From contig CALVVG010000005.1 of the NCBI GenBank assembly GCA_944363795.1, positions 1 through 44,054 of the forward strand: DNA of 44,054 nucleotides, given 5' to 3'. The position numbers and the translations under genes were made by a program. The DNA comes from an uncultured Bacilli bacterium (GTDB taxonomy: Bacteria; Bacillota_I; Bacilli_A; RF39; UBA660). This document shows, piece after piece, positions 10,786 through 34,056 of this stretch. Each line of letters starts with the position of its first letter. Position 1 is the stretch's first letter. The notes beneath the pieces were generated by a model. That model was not told where the DNA came from, made no database searches, and saw nothing but the letters and a program-made list of their open reading frames with translations.

Positions 10786-13296
10786 ATGAGAGAAAAAATA
10801 AAATTAAAGAACAAAAAAGAAATCATAATGTTAGGCATTGGAGTATTAGTATTATTGCTAGTAGTAAGTGGAGCAACAGTAGCATATTTTGTATCACAAG
10901 GCGGAGGTACAGTAAGTAAAAATATGAATTTAATAACAGATACAACAGATATGTTAACATTTAATATAGCAAACGATATAAGTATAAATGCCAATCAAGA
11001 TAACTTTTCTGAAGGAGCAGGAGATAGAACAAGTAGTACAGTTGCAACAGCAACACTAAGAGCCAATAATACTAATAATACAGCCAGAGCAACATATAAT
11101 ATCTATTTAATAATAGAAAATAATACTTTTGAATATACAACAAGTTATGCAACACCAGAACTATTATTAGAAGTAACAGATCCTAATGGCAACAAGGTAG
11201 AAAATATAACAGGATTGTTACATAGTGAAGAAGGATTTGATATAACAACCAGAACCGGAGGATATTTAATAATATCAGATTATGAAATAGCAACAGATAC
11301 CGGATTAGCAGAACAAGAATGGAATGTAAGTATAAAGTTTAAAAATTTGGATAGTAATCAAAATGAAAATCAAGGAAAAACATTATCAGGTAAAATATAT
11401 ATGACACAAAATAAAATGAGTTCGTATGTCCCAATAGAAATAAATAATGTAGTAAGTGAGGCAACATATAATAGTGCTAAAGTAAGTTTAGAGCTAAGTA
11501 ATGGAACAAGTGAAGTAGAAAAGTATTATTATGGAATAGAAGAAAATACAAACATGAGAAGTGCTAGTGATGTAGAATATATAGAAAGTGATGTAGCAGA
11601 ATATACATTTACCAATTTAGAAGAAAATCAAGAATATACAATATATAGTTATGTAGTAGATAAAAATAAAGTAAAATCAAATATATATACAACAAATATA
11701 ACAACAGAAGAATATGATGTCCCAGTAATAAATAGTGTAAGCCATAGTGTAACATTAACAAGTATTAGTTTAGAAGTAAATGCAACAAAAGGAAGCAATG
11801 AAATAACAAAATATATGTATAGTAAAGATAATGGCTTAACTTGGGAATCAAGTAGCAATAATACCTATACATTTAATAACTTAACAGATACAACAGAATA
11901 TAAAATAAAAGTAAAAGTAGTAGATAGTGAAAATAAAGAATCAACCGAATATTATGAAGCAATAACAACAGAAATATATATAAATCCAACAGTAACCAGA
12001 GTAGATGCAACAACGACATGGAATAGTATCACATTAACACCAACCGGAGCAAATGGAACCAATGAAATAAGTAAATATATGTATTCAATAGATGATGGAG
12101 CATATCAAGAAAGTAATGTATTTAATAATTTAAGTGATAATAAAGAATACACGATAAAAGTAAAAGCAATAGATAGTTCAAATAGAGAATCAAATGTGTA
12201 TGAAATGCAAGTAAGAACAGATGAATACATATTACCAAGTATCAACGTAGAAACAAGTAGTACAAGTGATAGTATAACAATCAATGTAAATGGAACAAAT
12301 GGAGATGGAGAAATAGTTAAGTATTACTATAGTAAAGATAATGGAAGTAACTATGAAGAAAGTACAAGTAATAGTTATACATTTAATAATTTAACAAGTA
12401 ATACAACATTTTATATAAAAGTATATGTTGAAGATAGTAATGGCAGAGTATCAAGTGAATATGTGACAAGTGAAAAAACTACTTTATCTGCTGCAGATTA
12501 TGTAATAAATAATGTTTATACAGAAGATGGAGAAAATGGCTTATATTATCATGATGGAGTAGGAACATATACTAATGCTAATCAAGAAGCTGGAGATAAC
12601 TCATATAGATATAGTGGAGCTAATCCAAACAATTATGTTTGTTTTGGCAGTGATGCAGCAACATGTCCTGATGATAAGTTATATCGAATCATAGGATTAT
12701 TTGATGATGATAAAGATGGAACATACAATATTAAATTAATAAAAAATACAAGTATTGGAAATTATGCATGGAATAGTGAGAAAGATAATACATGGGATGA
12801 AAGTACAAAACCAGATATAAGAACAACATTAAATAGTACATTTTTAGGAACAATAAATTCAACATGGCAAGAAAAGATAGCAGAACATAACTGGAAAGTT
12901 GGGGGAATGGTTCAAGGTGGTTCAGGAACAGCAAAGGATTATTACAATACAGAAATAGGAAGTAGCTCAGGTAGTACAACCGATAACATGAAAATAGGAT
13001 TAATGTATGTAAGTGATTATGGATATGCAGCAGCACCAAGTAACTGGACAACAGGATTATATATTTATGATAGTGCAAGAAGTACAAACTGGCTATATTT
13101 AGGTCCTGATGAATGGACAATTTCCCGCAATACAAACTCTTACTATCATGTCTTCTCTGTGATCAATGCAGGGCTTCTCGGCGGCAGCTATGTGGCTCTT
13201 ACGTATGCGGTGCGTCCGTCCTTTTATCTAGAGTCTAGTGTAGTACTAACTGGAGGAAGCGGAACTTCGAGTGATCCTTATCGCTTGGCAATATAA
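10786..13296 (+). CDS. large surface protein with four FnIII-like repeats and DGR-type variable C-terminal domain
   Basis: This is an 836-aa predicted surface protein. Residues 14-35 form a hydrophobic anchor or signal segment ending in ATVAYF, reminiscent of TasA/camelysin-like exports. Residues 36-215 form a beta-rich domain. Residues 216-568 hold four FnIII-like repeats that share patterns such as KYMYSKDNG, TFNNLT and EYTIKV. Residues 569-836 form a lectin/FGE-like (DUF6273-like) domain shared with the genes at 23245 and 29358. Within it, residues about 779-811 are encoded by a GC-rich patch with a different base composition from the rest of the gene, equivalent to the DGR variable repeat. 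AVRPSFYL follows the patch. A long T tract and strong promoter precede the gene, and a terminator follows. It is interpreted as a remote DGR target displaying a variable ligand-binding face; the ligand is unknown. Confidence 0.8.
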   Translation: MREKIKLKNKKEIIMLGIGVLVLLLVVSGATVAYFVSQGGGTVSKNMNLITDTTDMLTFNIANDISINANQDNFSEGAGDRTSSTVATATLRANNTNNTARATYNIYLIIENNTFEYTTSYATPELLLEVTDPNGNKVENITGLLHSEEGFDITTRTGGYLIISDYEIATDTGLAEQEWNVSIKFKNLDSNQNENQGKTLSGKIYMTQNKMSSYVPIEINNVVSEATYNSAKVSLELSNGTSEVEKYYYGIEENTNMRSASDVEYIESDVAEYTFTNLEENQEYTIYSYVVDKNKVKSNIYTTNITTEEYDVPVINSVSHSVTLTSISLEVNATKGSNEITKYMYSKDNGLTWESSSNNTYTFNNLTDTTEYKIKVKVVDSENKESTEYYEAITTEIYINPTVTRVDATTTWNSITLTPTGANGTNEISKYMYSIDDGAYQESNVFNNLSDNKEYTIKVKAIDSSNRESNVYEMQVRTDEYILPSINVETSSTSDSITINVNGTNGDGEIVKYYYSKDNGSNYEESTSNSYTFNNLTSNTTFYIKVYVEDSNGRVSSEYVTSEKTTLSAADYVINNVYTEDGENGLYYHDGVGTYTNANQEAGDNSYRYSGANPNNYVCFGSDAATCPDDKLYRIIGLFDDDKDGTYNIKLIKNTSIGNYAWNSEKDNTWDESTKPDIRTTLNSTFLGTINSTWQEKIAEHNWKVGGMVQGGSGTAKDYYNTEIGSSSGSTTDNMKIGLMYVSDYGYAAAPSNWTTGLYIYDSARSTNWLYLGPDEWTISRNTNSYYHVFSVINAGLLGGSYVALTYAVRPSFYLESSVVLTGGSGTSSDPYRLAI
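13122..13216 (+). repeat. DGR variable repeat (VR2, remote target)
   Basis: This 95-nt segment is about 51% GC in an otherwise strongly AT-rich gene. It has exactly the same length and reading frame as the cis-target VR at 30338-30432, starts with the same TTCCC and ends with GCGGT(G/C)CGTC. The two VRs differ at 41 of 90 codon positions, but several codons (TTC, GTG, GGC, GCG, CGT) are unchanged. Many variable codon pairs fit an AAC or AAT template codon mutated at adenines, for example CAC/ATC, GGT/CTT, TAC/GGC, AAC/AGC and AGT/TAT. Confidence 0.75.
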
Positions 13297-23192: not shown

Positions 23193-23223
23193 TTGATTTT
23201 TTTTTTTTTTTTTTTTGTATAAT
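23193..23223 (+). promoter_or_regulatory. promoter with a 20-T homopolymer as spacer
   Basis: TTGATT (23193-23198) and TATAAT (23218-23223) are separated by 19 bases: 18 T and one G. The full T run is 20 (23197-23216). Loss of two T would give the ideal 17-bp spacing, so slippage should change promoter activity. It is the likely promoter of the surface protein at 23245. Confidence 0.65.
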
Positions 23224-23244
23224 GGGGAAAATAGAGGTGTATCC

Positions 23245-24522
23245 ATGAAAAAAATAGTAGTAGGAATAATATTAATTATTACAATAATAGGAATAGGAAG
23301 TTATCAATATTTAGCGAGTAAAAATGAAGTAAGTACAAAAGAAAAGCAGATAAAAAATACAAATATGCTCACGATGATGTTAGAAACAGAAGCGGGTACT
23401 GGAATATATGAAGAAGCTACTCAAAGTGAATGGTCACTTGATGGATATGTATTTAATGAAAACTTAAGTAAATGTGAAAATGGTGGGACAGTTACTTACA
23501 ATGAAGAGACTAAAAAAATAAATATGCAAACAAATATAAGTGATAAATGTTATGTGTATTTTGATATTAAAAAGGAACTTACTTTTGCAGAATATATTAT
23601 AAATGAAGTATACACCGAAGATGGAGTAAATGGCTTATATTATCATGATGGAATAGGTTCATATACCAATGCTTTTGAAGAAGCAGGAGATAATTCGTAT
23701 AGATACTCAGGAGCAAATCCCAATAATTATTTGTGTTTTGGGAGTGATGCTGCAACCTGTCCAAATGATAACTTATATAGAATAATAGGGTTATTTGATG
23801 ATGATCAAGATGGAAAATATAATATTAAATTAATAAAAAATAGCAGCATAGGAGACTATGAATGGGATGATGGTGTTATATCATTTGAAAATTCTTTAGC
23901 TATTAGTAATAAAAATGTTAAATACAAAGTAACGAGATTAAATGATATTTTGGCAGCCCCAGATGTTTGCAATGGCAGTAACTCATGGGCTACAGCAGAT
24001 TTAAATTATTATCTTAATAATGATAAATTTTTAAATAAATTTGATATATTATGGCAGGATAAAATTTTTAATAATACTTGGCAAGTAGGAGGAAATTCGG
24101 AAACTAATATAATTGATGTAACAATAAAAAATACCTATCAGAATGAAATAAAAATCCCAGCTGAAAATACAACATATACAGCTAAGATAGGCTTAATGTA
24201 TGTAAGTGATTATGGATATGCGGCTAGTCCTGAAAACTGGAAGACAAATTTAAGCTCTTATAATAATACAACAAATACTAATAATAATTGGCTATATTTA
24301 AAAGCAAATGAATGGACTATAACTCGTGGATATTTTTCATCACTTTCTGTATTTATGATAAATTTTATGAGAGAAACTAACACTAGGTCAGGAAGCGTGT
24401 TGTCAAATTATGTTTGCAGCGAATTTTATTCAGATTTAAAAGTAAGGCCTACTTTTTATTTAAATTCAGATATATTATTTCAATCTGGTTCTGGCACCAA
24501 AACACATCCATATCGCATTTAA
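23245..24522 (+). CDS. surface protein with lectin/FGE-like C-terminal domain (non-GC-rich paralogue)
   Basis: This 425-aa protein has an N-terminal membrane anchor (residues 4-22). A short module (MLTMMLETEAGTG ... SKCENGGT ... SDKCYVYFDI) is nearly the same as in the gene at 29358. The domain shared with 10786 and 29358 begins at YIINEVYTEDG, with SYRYSGANPNNY, CFGSDAATCP and LMYVSDYGYAA. The region after EWTI, which is variable in the paralogues, is here longer, AT-rich and unrelated (RGYFSSLSVFMINF ... VCSEFYSD), followed by KVRPTFYL. It therefore lacks a recognisable DGR variable repeat. The ATG at 23245 follows AGAGGTGT; an upstream TTG lies inside the promoter and is rejected. Confidence 0.75.
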   Translation: MKKIVVGIILIITIIGIGSYQYLASKNEVSTKEKQIKNTNMLTMMLETEAGTGIYEEATQSEWSLDGYVFNENLSKCENGGTVTYNEETKKINMQTNISDKCYVYFDIKKELTFAEYIINEVYTEDGVNGLYYHDGIGSYTNAFEEAGDNSYRYSGANPNNYLCFGSDAATCPNDNLYRIIGLFDDDQDGKYNIKLIKNSSIGDYEWDDGVISFENSLAISNKNVKYKVTRLNDILAAPDVCNGSNSWATADLNYYLNNDKFLNKFDILWQDKIFNNTWQVGGNSETNIIDVTIKNTYQNEIKIPAENTTYTAKIGLMYVSDYGYAASPENWKTNLSSYNNTTNTNNNWLYLKANEWTITRGYFSSLSVFMINFMRETNTRSGSVLSNYVCSEFYSDLKVRPTFYLNSDILFQSGSGTKTHPYRI

Positions 24523-27763: not shown

Positions 27764-29051
27764 AAAATTTTGGTATTTAACAAAAATTAGTTTAAATAAA
27801 AAAATTAAATCTAAATGGTTTATAGTTACAAATATAATTATTTTTATTGCCATTGTTGCTCTTATGAATATATCATCAATTATTGAATTTTTTGGTGGGG
27901 ATTTTGAGAATAGTACTCATGTATTAATAGTAGATAATACAGATAGTAGCTATGATTTATTTAAAAATAATTTAGAGGTATTTAATGAAGAGATTGATAT
28001 TACTGTTGAAGAAAGTAATGAAAGTATTGATGCATTAAAAGATAATTTAGAAGATGAAGAATTAATTGTTATTTTAAATAGTGATCCATCTAAGTATATA
28101 GTAGCAGAAGTAATAAGTAATAATAAAATAGATAATATTACTTATCAGTTCATTGTTCAAGCATTAAATAATACTAAAACTACTATAGGTATGATGGCTA
28201 GTAATATTGATCCTAATATTTTACAAGCAATTGAAGCTAATGTTGAAGTAGAAAGAACAATATTAAATGAAGAATTAACTAGTGATGAAAATGCTGATTT
28301 AATAATGAGTAGTGTATTTCCTACTTTAATATTACCATTTTTTATGCTGATTATCTTTTTAGTACAAATGGTAGGGGGAGAAATATGTGAAGAAAAAACT
28401 ACTCGTAGTATGGAAATAATTATTTCTAATGTTTCTCCAAAAACACATTTAATGTCTAAAATATTAGCTAGTAATTTATTTGTTATAATTCAAGCTTTAT
28501 TATTAATACTTTATTCTATAATTGCTTTAATGATTAGTAAATATTTAGGTAATTCTATATTTGATATATCTAGTAGTATTTCTACTATAGTAGATACTTT
28601 AAAGACAAGTGGTATGTTTGCTAAATTAGGTTTAATAATACCTATTACTATTATTTTAATTATTGCATCTTTTGTAGCCTATTCTTTAGTTGCAGGTATA
28701 CTTGCATCAATGACAGTAAACATTGAAGATTTTAATCAATTACAAAGTCCAATTATGCTTATATCTTTAGCAGGATATTATTTATCTATAATGGCATCTA
28801 TGTTTGATGGCTCAATATTTATTAGAATATTATCTTATATACCATTTTTATCAGTCTTTATTAGTCCAACATTATTTGTTATAGGACAAGTTACTTTAAT
28901 TGATTTATTAATATCAGTAGCTGTATTAATTGTATTTATAGTATTATTATTAAAATATGGTTTAAAAGTATATAAAGTTGGTATACTTAATTATTCAAGT
29001 AATAAAATATGGTCAAAATTTTTTAAAGCATTTAAAAGTAAAGAAAATTAA
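27756..29051 (+). CDS. ABC-2 type permease (NatB-like)
   Basis: This 431-aa protein has one N-terminal helix and an extracellular domain of about 150 residues with a DxxD-like region (IVDNTDSSYDLF). Five to six C-terminal helices follow, with the block GGEICEEKTTRSMEIIISNVSPKTHLMSK split across the membrane core as in NatB/ABC2_membrane_3 permeases. It forms the transporter with the ATPase just upstream. The ATG at 27756 follows GGTGG, and a terminator follows the stop. Confidence 0.88.
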   Translation: MNKKFWYLTKISLNKKIKSKWFIVTNIIIFIAIVALMNISSIIEFFGGDFENSTHVLIVDNTDSSYDLFKNNLEVFNEEIDITVEESNESIDALKDNLEDEELIVILNSDPSKYIVAEVISNNKIDNITYQFIVQALNNTKTTIGMMASNIDPNILQAIEANVEVERTILNEELTSDENADLIMSSVFPTLILPFFMLIIFLVQMVGGEICEEKTTRSMEIIISNVSPKTHLMSKILASNLFVIIQALLLILYSIIALMISKYLGNSIFDISSSISTIVDTLKTSGMFAKLGLIIPITIILIIASFVAYSLVAGILASMTVNIEDFNQLQSPIMLISLAGYYLSIMASMFDGSIFIRILSYIPFLSVFISPTLFVIGQVTLIDLLISVAVLIVFIVLLLKYGLKVYKVGILNYSSNKIWSKFFKAFKSKEN

Positions 29052-29077
29052 TTTAAAAAAATTTAAAAATTTATATG

Positions 29078-29114
29078 AATCTCATTTTTATTATATTTAA
29101 GAATGAGATTTTTA
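29078..29114 (+). terminator. terminator after the ABC transporter operon
   Basis: The 9-bp arms AATCTCATT and AATGAGATT, with a loop of about 15 nt, are followed by a T run. Confidence 0.8.
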
Positions 29115-29150
29115 TATGTCAAAATTAATTTATAAATATTATAAAAACAC

Positions 29151-29214
<64 letters not shown>

Positions 29215-29255
29215 AGGAAAAAATAGAGGTGTGTAAAGCAAATAAAATAAGATGC

Positions 29256-29284
29256 TTGCGTTACCTATATTTTTGTAATATAAT
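29256..29284 (+). promoter_or_regulatory. second promoter of the DGR cis-target gene
   Basis: TTGCGT (29256-29261), a 17-bp spacer and TATAAT (29279-29284) lie 73 bp before the ATG. An AT-rich palindrome (ACAAATTTTTT ... ATTTGT, about 29311-29335) lies between this promoter and the start. Confidence 0.55.
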
Positions 29285-29357
29285 TAAAATATATAAAGTA
29301 ACACAATATGACAAATTTTTTAAAAATTATTTGTTATAGTAAAGTAGAGGATAGAAA

Positions 29358-30512
29358 ATGAAAAAGAAAATAAGTATAATAATTACATTATCAATAGTAT
29401 TAATAGGTATAATAGTAATACTAATAAATAGGGAAGAAAAGATAGTAAAAGAAACAAATAAAGAAGTAATAAAAAAAGCTAATATGTTAACAATGATGTT
29501 AGAAACAGAAGCGGGAACAGGTAATTATGAAGAAGTAACACAGAGTGAGTGGCCGCAGGAGGGATATGTATTTAATGCAGAACTTTCTAAATGTGAAAAT
29601 GGTGGAACACTCTCTTGGGATGATGAGAATAAAAAAGTAGTAATGCAGTCAAATACAAGTGATAAATGTTATATATACTTTGACATAGCAAATCAAACAT
29701 TTGCAGATTATATAATAAATGGAGTATACACTGAAGATGGAGTAAATGGATTATATTATCATGATGGAATAGGAACATATACAAATGCTAATCAAGAAGC
29801 TGGAGATAATAGCTATCGCTATAGTGGAGCAAATCCTAATAATTATGTGTGCTTTGGTTCAAATACTGAGACATGTCCAAATGATAACTTATATAGAATA
29901 ATCGGATTGTTTGATGATGATAAGGATGGAACATACAATATTAAACTAATAAAAAATACAAGTATTGGAGATTATGCATGGGACTCAGGAAATAGTAATA
30001 CATGGGATTCAAGCACAAAACCAAATATATATACAACTTTGAATACCACATATTGGGCAACATTAACTAGCGAGTGGCAAAACTTAATCGATGCAACGTA
30101 CCAATGGCAAGTTGGAGGAATGGCAAAAGATAACTCATATATAGTAAAACAATATTATGATGTAGAAATAAAAAATCAAACCGGATATGAAGAAACAATG
30201 GCAGTAGGATTAATGTATGTAAGTGATTATGGATATGCAGCAAGTCCTGAAAATTGGCAAACAGCCTTATATGATTATAATAATACAACAAATACAAATA
30301 ATAATTGGATGTATTTGGGAGCTGTTGAATGGACTATTTCCCACAGGCTGGGCAGTCCGAACAGTGTGTTCTATGTGCACAGCGCGGGCGGTGTCGGCTA
30401 CAACAGTGCGAGCTTTGCGGATGCGGTCCGTCCGTCCGTTTATCTCAAGTCTGAAATAGCTCTTGAGGGGGGAACTGGCAGCGCCGGTGACCCATTTAGA
30501 ATTAACCTATAA
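29358..30512 (+). CDS. DGR cis-target surface protein with variable lectin/FGE-like domain
   Basis: This 384-aa protein has an N-terminal membrane anchor (about residues 4-23) and the short Cys-containing module shared with the gene at 23245 (ANMLTMMLETEAGTG ... SKCENGGT ... SDKCYIYFDI). The shared C-terminal domain starts at YIINGVYTEDG and contains CFGSNTETCP and LMYVSDYGYAASPENW. The variable repeat encodes residues about 327-358 (ISHRLGSPNSVFYVHS ... AVRPS), then YLKSEIALEGGTGSAGDP closes the protein. Base composition switches abruptly from AT-rich to GC-rich at the variable repeat. A template repeat, accessory gene and reverse transcriptase follow, so this is the cis target of the DGR. 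A ligand-binding surface exposed outside the cell is the inferred role. Confidence 0.85.
   Translation: MKKKISIIITLSIVLIGIIVILINREEKIVKETNKEVIKKANMLTMMLETEAGTGNYEEVTQSEWPQEGYVFNAELSKCENGGTLSWDDENKKVVMQSNTSDKCYIYFDIANQTFADYIINGVYTEDGVNGLYYHDGIGTYTNANQEAGDNSYRYSGANPNNYVCFGSNTETCPNDNLYRIIGLFDDDKDGTYNIKLIKNTSIGDYAWDSGNSNTWDSSTKPNIYTTLNTTYWATLTSEWQNLIDATYQWQVGGMAKDNSYIVKQYYDVEIKNQTGYEETMAVGLMYVSDYGYAASPENWQTALYDYNNTTNTNNNWMYLGAVEWTISHRLGSPNSVFYVHSAGGVGYNSASFADAVRPSVYLKSEIALEGGTGSAGDPFRINL
30338..30432 (+). repeat. DGR variable repeat (VR1, cis target)
   Basis: The 95-nt segment is about 62% GC, bounded by TTCCCACAG and GCGGTCCGTC, both of which recur in the template repeat at 30680-30723. Over the aligned 39 coding bases it differs from the template at 7 positions: AGA/AGG, TTG/CTG, GAC/GGC, AAT/AGT, ACG/CCG, AAT/AGT and AAT/GAT. 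Six of these are template adenines, the mark of adenine-specific DGR mutagenesis. VR1 contains 17 codons absent from the template. Confidence 0.88.
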
Positions 30513-30514
30513 TA

Positions 30515-30660
30515 GGACAAATTCGCTTGTCTACGCGTCCTTGCGATGCGAGGCAAGCAGGGGAAAAATGAGTGAGTAACCAAGCGGATAAATAAGCTTG
30601 GCAGTGAGATGATAAGGCCGGGTCTGCATGTAGTGCAGGTGGAGGCCGGCGCCTTTAATC
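30515..30660 (+). ncRNA. GC-rich multi-hairpin element between VR1 gene and TR
   Basis: This non-coding stretch is far richer in GC than the genome. It can form successive stems: GACAA/TTGTC (30517-30532), CTTGC/GCAAG (about 30540-30557), CCAAGC/GCTTGG (30580-30601) and a long arm AAGGCCGG/CCGGCGCCTT (about 30614-30655). The long arm carries an inner CTGCA/TGCAG hairpin. It lies directly between the target stop and the template repeat, so it is likely part of the transcript containing the TR. It matches no RNA family that I recognise; functional status is inferred from structure and location. Confidence 0.55.
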
Positions 30661-30679
30661 TAGGGTAATTTGGGATAAA

Positions 30680-30723
30680 TTCCCACAGATTGGACAATAC
30701 GAACAATGCGAATGCGGTCCGTC
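30680..30723 (+). repeat. DGR template repeat (TR), internally shortened
   Basis: The 44-nt core from TTCCCACAG to GCGGTCCGTC reads in the VR frame as CAC AGA TTG GAC AAT ACG AAC AAT GCG AAT GCG GTC CGT. Asn codons (AAC/AAT) are over-represented, as usual in DGR templates. It matches the two ends of VR1 with nearly all mismatches at adenines, but lacks 51 nt from the middle. Both 95-nt VRs imply a longer ancestral template. The copy may be a deletion derivative, or the assembly may have collapsed a repeat. Confidence 0.75.
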
Positions 30724-30827
30724 GAGACCTTTATTTGTTCTAGAACTATAAGATTAAGGTTTTATAGTGAATGAGGTAAAGGACAAAAATTATCCTTGGA
30801 TATTAATCCTAAAAAAGAAATATAGAT

Positions 30828-30849
30828 GGAAGATTATACGTAATCTTCC
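30828..30849 (+). promoter_or_regulatory. perfect hairpin in the leader between TR and accessory gene
   Basis: The 9-bp arms GGAAGATTA and TAATCTTCC flank a TACG loop with no following T run, so it is not a typical terminator. In known DGRs, structured RNA downstream of the TR is needed for cDNA priming; this hairpin is in the right place. Confidence 0.5.
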
Positions 30850-30880
30850 TATTAACTATATTAAATTAAAAAGGAGTTAT

Positions 30881-31105
30881 ATGGCGAAATATCTTAAAAT
30901 ATATAAAATAGGTAATTTTTATAATGCCTATGGAGATGATGGAATAATAATCCATTACTTAATTAAATATAAATATGTTGAATATAAAAAATCTGTTGGT
31001 TTTCCAAAATCTTCTTATAATAAAGTAATAAATATATTACAATGTCATGATATATCATATGAAATATATGATAAAGATACATTACAAGAAAATATAATGG
31101 TATAA
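30881..31105 (+). CDS. MutS domain I-like DGR accessory protein (MSL type)
   Basis: This 74-aa protein resembles only the N-terminal mismatch-recognition domain of MutS: FYNAYGDDGIIIHYLIKYKY, then a VGFPKSSYNKVINIL helix and a DISYEIYDKD strand. Stand-alone MutS-like ORFs are a known DGR accessory class, and its location between TR and reverse transcriptase fits. The ATG follows AAAAAGGAGTTAT; an upstream in-frame GTG at 30767 would add an unlikely Lys/Tyr-rich leader. No ATPase domain follows, so it is not a repair MutS. It may bind the template RNA or DNA mismatches during mutagenic homing. Confidence 0.65.
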   Translation: MAKYLKIYKIGNFYNAYGDDGIIIHYLIKYKYVEYKKSVGFPKSSYNKVINILQCHDISYEIYDKDTLQENIMV

Positions 31106-31151
31106 GTAAGAGATATGATAAAATATTAAAGGAGCATTAAATGCTTATAAT

Positions 31152-31241
31152 ATGGAACAACGTGTAGCTAGATTACGAAAAAAAATAAATGATTGTACTT
31201 TTGAAGAATTAGAATCTTTAATAATGGGAACAGATTATTGA
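31152..31241 (+). pseudogene. short helical ORF fragment before the Avd-like gene
   Basis: The 29-aa reading frame (MEQRVARLRKKINDC ... ELESLIMGTDY) is helix-forming but very short. AAGGAG lies 18 bases before its ATG and nearer to another ATG with an 8-codon frame. It may be the remnant N-terminus of an accessory protein, or not translated. Nothing else is recognised. Confidence 0.3.
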
Positions 31242-31581
31242 AAATGAAAAATTTTTATTAGTTAAATATGTAAAAAAGTTTATTATTGAATTAGAAAAAA
31301 TAATTCTAACATTCCCTAAAAAGGATATAATATCTTGAAATATGATATATAATGATTCATTAGAACTTTTAGAATTAATTATTAAGGCTAATTATGAACA
31401 AGAAAAAAGTGTTAAACAAACATATCAAATAGCAGCTTTAGCTAAAATTAATAAAATAGATTTTTATTTAGAAAGAGCATATAAACTAAAATATATTAGT
31501 GAAAAACAATGTTTAAATAAAACTAATGAGTTAATTAAAATAAATAAAATGTTATTTGCGTGGTGTAATAATGCTAAATGA
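31228..31581 (+). pseudogene. Avd-like DGR accessory variability gene, interrupted
   Basis: In one frame the sequence reads as a four-helix bundle of the Avd/S23-like type: EKFLLVKYVKKFIIELEKII, then LTFPKKDIIS, an in-frame TGA (31330-31332), and then LELLELIIKANYEQEKSVKQ ... ELIKINKMLFAWCNNAK. No start codon opens the first half in frame. The second half could be made from ATG 31342 as a 79-aa fragment and overlaps the reverse transcriptase start by 11 bases, as an intact avd would. FPKKD matches the family's turn motif. The gene looks broken; alternatively, only the C-terminal half is used for translational coupling. Confidence 0.6.
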
Positions 31582-32650
31582 ATTAAATATAAAAAATGTA
31601 TTAGATATATATGAAAATGAAATAAGTAAAAATGTTAAAAATAAGAAAAAACTATATTATTTTGATATTAATAAAATACAAAATATAAATAGTATAATTA
31701 ATATGCTAAAAGTAAGTAATGTAGGACATGAAAAATATAATATATTTGTAATACATGAACCAAAAGAACGCTTAATTATGAGTTTAAGTGTTAAAGATAA
31801 AGTAATAAATCATTTTGTTACTAAATACATTTTAGAGAAAAAACTTTCTAAATATTTAGATGATAGAAATGTAGCTACAAGAAAAAATAAAGGAACAGAT
31901 TATGGCATAAGGTTAGTAAAAAAATACTTAAATATTATGAAAAATAAATATGATGATTTTTATGCGTTAAAAATTGATATAAGTAAGTATTTTTATAGTA
32001 TTGATCATAATGTTTTAAAAAAATTGTTAATAGATAAATTAAATAATTATGAATATGAAGTTATTTGTAAAATAATAAATACCACTAATAAGAAATATAT
32101 TAATGAAACAATAGCTAAAATAAGAAGAAAATACAATTATGATATTCCTGATTATTTTAACAATAAAGGGTTACCTATTGGTAATATGACTAGTCAGTTT
32201 TTATCAATATTTTATTTAAATGAACTAGATCATTTTATTGTTCATAATTTAAAGTTAAAATATTATGTAAGATATATGGATGATTTTATTATTATAAATA
32301 ATGATAAAAAAAGATTAAAAGAAGCATTAAAAATTATTGAATATAAATTAAATAAAGAATATAAATTGAATTTAAATAAGAAAAAAACAAGTATTATAAA
32401 TGTTAAACATGGTTTTAGTTTTTTAGGTTATGTATTTAAAATTAAAGACAAAAAAGTGATTATAAAAGTACGAAATGAAAGTATAAAAAAGATAAAAAAA
32501 AGAGTAAAAGCAGTTAAGTATTTATTGAAAACTAAAAAAATAGATTATTATAATGCCTTTTGTACAATAATGACTTATAGTAATAGTTATAAGTATTGTA
32601 AAAATAATAAAATAAATAAAATCATTAATAGGTATTTTTATGAAAAATAA
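31571..32650 (+). CDS. DGR reverse transcriptase
   Basis: This 359-aa intact reverse transcriptase carries the palm motifs in order: RNVATRKNKGTDYGI, then DISKYFYSIDHN with the first catalytic Asp. GLPIGNMTSQFLSIFYLNELD, YVRYMDDFIIINND with the catalytic DD, and SFLGYVFKI follow. The IGxxxSQ form of motif 4 (IGNMTSQ) is diagnostic for diversity-generating retroelements rather than group II introns or retrons. ATG 31571 overlaps the end of the Avd-like frame; a TTG 5 codons upstream is less likely. Unlike the VR and TR it is as AT-rich as the genome, indicating long residence. It should copy the TR RNA into adenine-mutagenised cDNA. Confidence 0.93.
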   Translation: MLNELNIKNVLDIYENEISKNVKNKKKLYYFDINKIQNINSIINMLKVSNVGHEKYNIFVIHEPKERLIMSLSVKDKVINHFVTKYILEKKLSKYLDDRNVATRKNKGTDYGIRLVKKYLNIMKNKYDDFYALKIDISKYFYSIDHNVLKKLLIDKLNNYEYEVICKIINTTNKKYINETIAKIRRKYNYDIPDYFNNKGLPIGNMTSQFLSIFYLNELDHFIVHNLKLKYYVRYMDDFIIINNDKKRLKEALKIIEYKLNKEYKLNLNKKKTSIINVKHGFSFLGYVFKIKDKKVIIKVRNESIKKIKKRVKAVKYLLKTKKIDYYNAFCTIMTYSNSYKYCKNNKINKIINRYFYEK

Positions 32651-32877
32651 ATATTATTTTTTTAAAAATTTATATCCAGATTATTTAATAATTATAAATA
32701 ATAATAAAAGTATAGGGATAGATAAATTACTTATTAAATATTTGAAAAATAACGATATTAATTAATTATATTAAAGTAAATAATGAATTTAAAATAATTA
32801 TTAAAAAATGCAAAATAAATAATTATTATCAATATGTAATTTTAGAAAGTATACTAAGTTTAATAAATAGCTTTTAA
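32640..32877 (+). pseudogene. unrecognised ORF remnant downstream of the RT
   Basis: A 41-codon frame (MKNKYYFFKNLYPDYL ... KYLKNNDIN) overlaps the RT end and stops at 32765. Coding-like sequence resumes in another frame (VNNEFKIIIKKCKINNYYQY ... SLINSF) up to 32877. The two halves look like one small protein broken by a frameshift in TAATTAATTATATTAAAG. No family is recognised; it could be another decayed DGR accessory gene. Confidence 0.35.
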
Positions 32878-32916
32878 TTATTTGTTATATTATGTTATTA
32901 TATAAATGGTGATTAT

Positions 32917-34056
32917 ATGATATTAACAGATAATATGAATATCCATAATAAGTATTTAAGTAAATATGCTTGTTTAGATAGTAATGCTATTTATTTAAAA
33001 CCAGAACAAAATGATTTTAGAACACCTTTTTTTAGAGATATAGATCGAATTATATATACATTAGCTTTTACTAGATATAAAGATAAAACGCAAGTATTTT
33101 CGTTTAAAGAAAATGATCATTTAACTAAAAGATTGATGCACGTTTTATATGTAAGTAAAATTGCTAGAACTATTGGAAGAGCTTTAGCATTAAATGAAGA
33201 TTTAATTGAAGCAGCAGCATTAGGGCATGATTTAGGTCATACCCCTTTTGGTCATGTCGGAGAAGCTATTTTAAATGAAATTAGTTTAAATAATAATGAA
33301 GGTTATTTTAATCATAATATTCATAGTGTAAGACTTTTAATGTCTATTGAAAATTATGGATTAGGTAAAAATATAACATTACAAACTTTAGATGCTATTA
33401 TGTGTCATAATGGAGAACTTCCAATGAATAAATATATTCCTAAAGAAAAAAATATTAAAGAATTTATTACTGAATATAAAAATAGTTATCAAGATAAAGA
33501 AATAATCAAAAAATTAATCCCTATGACTTTAGAAGGATGTGTAGTTAGAATTAGTGATTTAATAGCATATTTAGGAAGAGACATTGAAGATGCTATAAGA
33601 CTTAAAATGATTAAAATAGATGATATTCCTCAAAATATTATAAATAATTTAGGTAAAAGTAATAAAGAAATAGTTAATTCTTTAACTATGGATGTAATAA
33701 AAAATAGTATGGGAAAAAATTATATTCAAATGAGTCCGAAAATTTATCAAGCAATAATTGATTTAAAAAAATATAATTATGAAAATATATATTATAAAGC
33801 TTATACTAAAGAAGAAAAAGCAAAATTAAAATTAATGTTAAATACATTATTTAATAAATATATAGATGATATTAATCAAAATAATGGAGAATCAAATATT
33901 ATAAAATCATATTTAAATAATATGAGTGAAGAATATAAAAATAACAATAGTAAAGAAAGAATAGTAATTGATTATATAGCTGGGATGACTGATGATTATT
34001 GTTTAAATGAATATAATAAATATCTAAAAAGTATCCATAATAAAAAAGAGGTGTAA
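32917..34056 (+). CDS. dgt: dGTP triphosphohydrolase-like HD protein
   Basis: This 379-aa HD-superfamily protein has the dGTPase N-terminal segment (FRTPFFRDIDRIIYTLAFTR), the metal-binding HD motif (ALGHDLGHTPFGH) and a later DLIAYLGRDIEDA that supplies the last metal ligand. It hydrolyses dGTP or other dNTPs to the nucleoside and triphosphate. GGTGAT precedes the ATG. It begins an apparent operon with the YfmF/YfmH genes. The position just beyond the DGR is probably incidental. Confidence 0.88.
   Translation: MILTDNMNIHNKYLSKYACLDSNAIYLKPEQNDFRTPFFRDIDRIIYTLAFTRYKDKTQVFSFKENDHLTKRLMHVLYVSKIARTIGRALALNEDLIEAAALGHDLGHTPFGHVGEAILNEISLNNNEGYFNHNIHSVRLLMSIENYGLGKNITLQTLDAIMCHNGELPMNKYIPKEKNIKEFITEYKNSYQDKEIIKKLIPMTLEGCVVRISDLIAYLGRDIEDAIRLKMIKIDDIPQNIINNLGKSNKEIVNSLTMDVIKNSMGKNYIQMSPKIYQAIIDLKKYNYENIYYKAYTKEEKAKLKLMLNTLFNKYIDDINQNNGESNIIKSYLNNMSEEYKNNNSKERIVIDYIAGMTDDYCLNEYNKYLKSIHNKKEV

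Follow-up and report, generated by a model that had tools for sequence, protein, structure and literature searches.

The stretch of DNA that we analyzed (44,054 nucleotides, hereafter the window) carries a diversity-generating retroelement (DGR), an element by which a bacterium alters a portion of a surface-type gene of its own. It is very probably a chromosomal DGR that formerly rewrote the C terminus of the adjacent target protein through adenine-directed mutagenic retrohoming but was later damaged. A preliminary description of this DNA had recognized the element but called its layout complete-looking. The identification stood, supported by the placement of the reverse transcriptase (RT) in the DGR clade, the homology to Avd and the adenine-directed differences between the template repeat (TR) and the variable repeat (VR), whereas the completeness did not: the TR lacks 51 interior nucleotides, both accessory genes are broken, and the RT alone is intact. 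Inactivation was probably recent. We compared the locus with the rest of its own assembly (an 868-kb draft in 42 contigs, 82% complete, in which target paralogs were located by sequence search), with 30 genomes of the genus and, at the family level, with 386 genomes. The host lineage is a small-genome group of Bacilli that is probably gut-associated, the gut origin being suggested by sample names, and the named relatives of the RT are uncultured Bacilli MAGs.

Components of the locus and their lesions

The target gene (29358–30512; all window features described here lie on the forward strand) is, as first described, an ORF of 384 amino acids. It encodes an N-terminal hydrophobic anchor, and the VR (30338–30435) lies inside its 3′ end, at the C terminus of the protein. 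The VR is full length and GC-rich (~0.5, compared with 0.24 in the surrounding 14 kb). The lectin/FGE-like character that had been suggested for this C terminus could not be confirmed: the target had no Pfam match, comparison with the PDB gave no convincing match, and the predicted structure was poor (pLDDT 37), with models from three window paralogs being unusable. Among 15 target paralogs, Pfam returned one weak match, to DUF6273. After the target stop codon stands a hairpin (30525–30558) with a 14-bp stem, several pairs of which carried two-sided changes in a comparison of 7 cassettes. Just upstream of the target gene, at about 29180–29207, is a run of ~28 T residues, which could be slippage-prone and affect target expression.

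The TR (30680–30723, 44 nt) and the VR starting at 30338 share the edges TTCCCACAG and GCGGTCCGTC, as had been reported; the rest of the 868-kb assembly contains no further site with both edges. The TR aligns to the full-length VR only with one 51-nt gap in the TR, and thus does not cover it in the window, whereas the TRs of congeners are full length. Nine differences separate the two repeats (the count varies from 7 to 9 with the choice of breakpoint), and all except one (8/9) fall at TR adenines, such that 8 of 13 adenines differ compared with 1 of 31 other bases (Fisher p = 6e-5). The earlier count of seven differences, six of them at adenines, corresponds to one of the equally good breakpoints but overlooked the gap.

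Relatives of the RT were present in 23 of the 30 genomes of the genus. Some 20 cassettes with intact accessory genes carry TRs of ~85–112 nt. In examples from congeners with full-length repeats, the TR/VR mismatches that fell at adenines numbered 19/19, 18/18, 21/21, 22/22 and 17/17; overall, congener repeats differed at 14–30 positions over 75–112 nt, nearly all of them adenines.

Between the TR and the RT of the window lie the remnants of two accessory genes. The first, msl (30881–31243), matches Pfam MutS_I (22.7 bits, cut-off 20.6), and this MutS domain I match fits what we take to be the MSL accessory type. Compared with its congeners, msl has two single-base gaps and is split over two frames, leaving an intact reading only at 30881–31105. 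The second, avd (31227–31581), lacks a start codon (ATG, GTG or TTG) in its frame ahead of an in-frame TGA (31336–31338), at which congeners carry an arginine codon; the match to congeners is otherwise collinear, with this one stop, and the remaining ORF still matches NF033474 (E = 3e-6) and phrog_3206 (the PHROG 'Avd protein of DGR'; E = 2.8e-8). In about 20 congener cassettes, msl (~126 amino acids) and avd (~118 amino acids) are each in one frame. We considered and rejected a rescue of avd by reading UGA as tryptophan: congeners have arginine at this codon, neighboring genes employ TGG, and msl carries a frameshift as well. No second avd-like place was found in the 82%-complete assembly. 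Genes homologous to a functional accessory protein (Avd or a substitute) are therefore present but broken, which lowers the case for a working DGR and not that for a DGR by descent. Two separately assembled genomes (L052 in G009 and L205 in ERR2497919) carry the same avd split over two frames, indicating that avd damage beside an intact RT occurs elsewhere in the genus.

The RT (31571–32650) is an intact ORF of 359 amino acids; the ATG at 31571 is its probable start codon. It has the IGNMTSQ form of motif 4 noted in the preliminary description (at residue 203) and YMDD at residue 235. In a tree that included RTs from two group II introns and the two retron-like RTs of the genome, it separated from these and grouped with the BPP-1 and ANMV-1 enzymes (branch support 96/94), and its phylogeny therefore places it inside the DGR clade. 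Its best PDB match was 8ub7, a reverse transcriptase. A group II intron was rejected, as the RT falls outside the intron-encoded RTs and an Rfam scan of 29000–33000 gave no match. Searching IMG/VR with the RT found no near relative among the viral contigs searched, and thus no sign of phage origin. The two further RTs of the genome (L001 in G000:C3 and L003 in G000:C2) are closest to the retron St85 family and are not of the DGR type; that of L001 adjoins an AAA ATPase-like ORF.

Structure of the template RNA

In aligned TR flanks from 21 cassettes, the pre-TR segment GGGUAAUCUU pairs with the post-TR segment AAGAUUAUCC. The 10-bp helix that joins these segments, P1, and the UACG-loop hairpin that follows it are conserved in the lineage. 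In the window, the left arm of P1 (30663–30671) pairs with its right arm (30787–30795), and the structured region at the 3′ side of the TR RNA (30726–30864) comprises helices P2 and P3, the right arm of P1 and the UACG-loop hairpin (30828–30849), of which 7 of 9 pairs have two-sided changes across the genus. The arms of P1 co-change, with the window itself showing a compensatory replacement of C-G by U-A. The arms stand 116 nt apart in the window, whereas the spacing is 163–183 nt in congeners and reaches 199 nt in one decayed copy.

The genus RNA alignment contains 36 pairs, with 96.8% of cells paired, and 15 of these pairs show two-sided changes, compared with 6.2 in shuffles and 1–5 in slid controls; RNAalifold recovered the same helices independently. 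Across 24 distinct pairs of P1 arms, each arm matched its own partner at 9.5 of 10 positions, compared with 7.3 when partners were swapped, and 0 of 20,000 shuffles did as well, although this swap test leans somewhat towards pairing because the arms were partly chosen by best fit. The genus alignment, in which the arms are fixed by position, provides the cleaner test. A crude duplex test showed no excess of clamp pairing over shuffles for BPP-1, but the same test also performed weakly on the genus RNAs, and it is therefore covariation, not energy, that carries the argument for P1 as a clamp around the TR.

A covariance model of the 3′ part, R1, scored 139 bits against the window, which was among the sequences used to build the model. 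The R1 element was present in 25 of the 30 genomes of the genus and, within the family, in 44 of 386 genomes, representing 24 genera, in some cases in arrays of several TRs close to a single RT gene set. In a second type of cassette, in which the TR comes after the RT, the R1 element again lies directly 3′ of the TR.

These features suggest how intact relatives probably work. The TR transcript would fold such that the pre-TR segment pairs with the post-TR segment to form P1, presenting the TR as a ~115-nt loop beside the structured 3′ element. If BPP-1 is a guide, the RT and Avd, perhaps together with the MSL protein, would bind this element, and cDNA would be primed from it. The TR would be copied with errors at adenines, and the cDNA, again by analogy with BPP-1, would replace the VR next to the post-VR hairpin. 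Of these parts, the window retains the RNA fold and the RT, but its TR is short by 51 nt, an in-frame loss, and msl and avd are both broken.

Template modules, target paralogs and traces of writing

The 868-kb genome has about 21 target paralogs (36 matching pieces), and among 15 of them variation peaks in the VR (mean entropy 2.43, vs 0.5–1.6 elsewhere). The layout first described captured the VR beside the TR but missed a second VR in the same window, at 13120–13218, in a paralog encoded by the ORF at 10786–13296. This second VR fits the TR of another species, G028 (L105), and not the window TR: 24 of the 30 differences fall at TR adenines, and 6 of 60 other bases are changed. Altogether four VRs (C19, C4, C6 and 13120–13218) fit the G028 TR, with 18/21, 21/21, 18/25 and 24/30 differences at adenines and 0–7 changes at other bases. 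These four VRs scored 39–50, compared with 8–13 for paralogs with AT-rich ends against any TR; because the alignment scoring favors adenine mismatches, this background, and not the p values, serves as the control. One such paralog, also within the window (23215–24522), has an AT-rich C terminus that matches none of the TRs observed in the genus. Of the VRs that fit the G028 TR and not any TR in this assembly (13120–13218, L171, L172 and L175), those at L171 and L172 keep the post-VR hairpin. The G028-type TR, the sequence of which starts AACAGACAATACGAATAATGCC, is absent from the window's assembly (82% complete). On these sequences, the simplest reading is that a second template wrote the four VRs and has since disappeared, or else sits in the 18% of the genome that the assembly lacks.

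Some genomes have several R1 copies, each after a different A-rich TR-like sequence that has a left arm of its own. G372 has four such copies within 1.6 kb, G347 also has four, and G290 has five. In G413, six R1 copies are dispersed, and one RT gene set was seen. The arrayed or dispersed sets in sister genera comprise 3–6 modules with different TRs and compensated clamp arms (L134, G372:C4; L135, G347:C21; L136, G290:C30; L137, G193:C50; L138, G190:C11; L139–L143, G413); at L138, the compensatory arm changes distinguish copies within one genome. For a few modules a nearby target VR fits at adenine positions (for example, 14/14 in L139 and 16/17 in L135), and for most multi-copy modules no VR was found in the stretches examined around them. 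The presence of several templates per RT is established as a layout, not as a function. Multiple TRs have been reported within metagenomes of individuals in a T. denticola study (PMC4891356), which was the only report of multiple TRs in a literature search that left most subscription literature outside its scope.

Decay also recurs in the genus: in several cassettes the RT is broken or is absent from the vicinity of the TR. Congeners carry template-RNA copies, solo or decaying, with no adjacent intact RT (L102–L109 and L111); one of these, L109, has an intact-looking TR and clamp, lacks accessory genes and may act in trans. In cassettes of two species (L069, G012:C3, 4473–6335; L053, G019:C1, 4479–6341), a group II intron that encodes its own RT (Rfam RF02005 and RF00029) interrupts the DGR RT at the YMDD codons, placing one retroelement within the active site of another.

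We tentatively advance, as something quite possible, a family-wide class of DGR with separable template-RNA modules. Each TR would be the loop of a covarying clamp helix on a conserved 3′ fold, one RT set would serve several modules, whether arrayed or dispersed and each with its own TR, and dead modules would leave VR fossils, the window being a dying module. If so, a reduced genome could diversify many paralogous targets through a single RT set.

Probable loss of activity and comparison with known systems

To judge from its sequence, the window copy is unlikely to be active. Nonsense mutations in avd abolish the activity of the BPP-1 DGR (PMC12875486), whereas homing persists with a BPP-1 donor that carries a 30-bp tag in place of TR positions 23–96 (PMC3240598). 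The TR deletion alone would therefore not be fatal, and the loss of avd is the stronger reason to consider the copy dead. The intact RT, together with the window's own compensatory changes in P1 and the UACG hairpin, suggests that selection acted until recently.

The same intact RT ORF and compensated pairing could also be expected if the DGR were still active, with the short TR working and the RT using either truncated Avd or Avd encoded in an unassembled part of the genome. BPP-1 tolerates replacement of the TR interior (PMC3240598), and the part missing from an 82%-complete genome could hold an avd or another TR. We nonetheless consider continued activity improbable: avd lacks a start codon in frame ahead of its stop, a second avd was not found in the assembly, msl is frameshifted, and the two VRs of the TR's family, the window VR and C23 (= L166), are both full length, so neither has been overwritten from the short TR since the deletion. 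It is more doubtful still, to the point of being very unlikely, that the TR gap, frameshifts and stop are assembly errors in a locus that is in reality intact. The assembly is a draft of 42 contigs and TR/VR repeats are assembly-prone, but a stretch of about 660 bases contains at least four separate lesions that differ in kind, the word shared at the deletion appears too short for the usual k-mer collapse, and many congeners also have decayed cassettes. Moreover, 8 of 10 genes scanned elsewhere in the window match their own families over most of the model (with FtsZ, EzrA, ThiI, acetate kinase, S4 and GlmS matching across nearly their full length), which argues against a general assembly fault. 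Finally, the short TR (44 nt) and the gap needed to align it would suit a degenerate duplication of the target 3′ end in which no retroelement acted, an explanation made extremely improbable by the concentration of differences at adenines, both here and over the longer repeats of congeners, and by the position of the RT in the DGR clade. We therefore favor a formerly active, since damaged DGR.

As a single element, the window locus is of an ordinary kind, and damaged. Its wider interest lies in an RNA architecture, supported by covariation, for the templates of DGRs other than that of BPP-1, which makes the marking of template start and end directly testable; in a lineage that combines an RT gene set with several template modules; and in a graded fossil record of DGR writing, in which fresh, decaying and AT-rich VRs occur together in a genome of <1 Mb.

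The Bordetella phage BPP-1 DGR (mtd–avd–TR–brt) resembles the window in its RT clade, Avd and adenine-directed change from TR to VR, as well as in having structured RNA 3′ of the TR and a hairpin after the VR, comparable in place to that at 30525–30558. In contrast to BPP-1, the window DGR is chromosomal, has an additional MutS-I (MSL-type) gene, is ordered target–TR–msl–avd–RT and is a broken copy; moreover, covariation supports a long-range helix spanning the TR here, and a simple duplex test, itself weak on the genus RNAs, showed no excess pairing for BPP-1. Thiohalocapsa PB-PSB1 similarly has several DGR loci in one genome, some of them degenerate with missing or pseudogenised machinery (PMC10907252). 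Unlike the window's lineage, it is a multicellular bacterium with a large genome, its DGRs belong to clade 5, and their degeneration is tied to MITE-like repeats (PMC10907252). The DGR of the archaeal virus ANMV-1 has an RT that groups with that of the window, but ANMV-1 is viral, whereas the window RT had no near relative in the viral contigs searched. In retron ncRNAs, an a1/a2 helix flanks the msd. The likeness to the window is by analogy only, in that the ends of a reverse-transcribed template are held by paired arms; the RT family and the product are different, and the two St85-like RTs of this genome are separate from its DGR.
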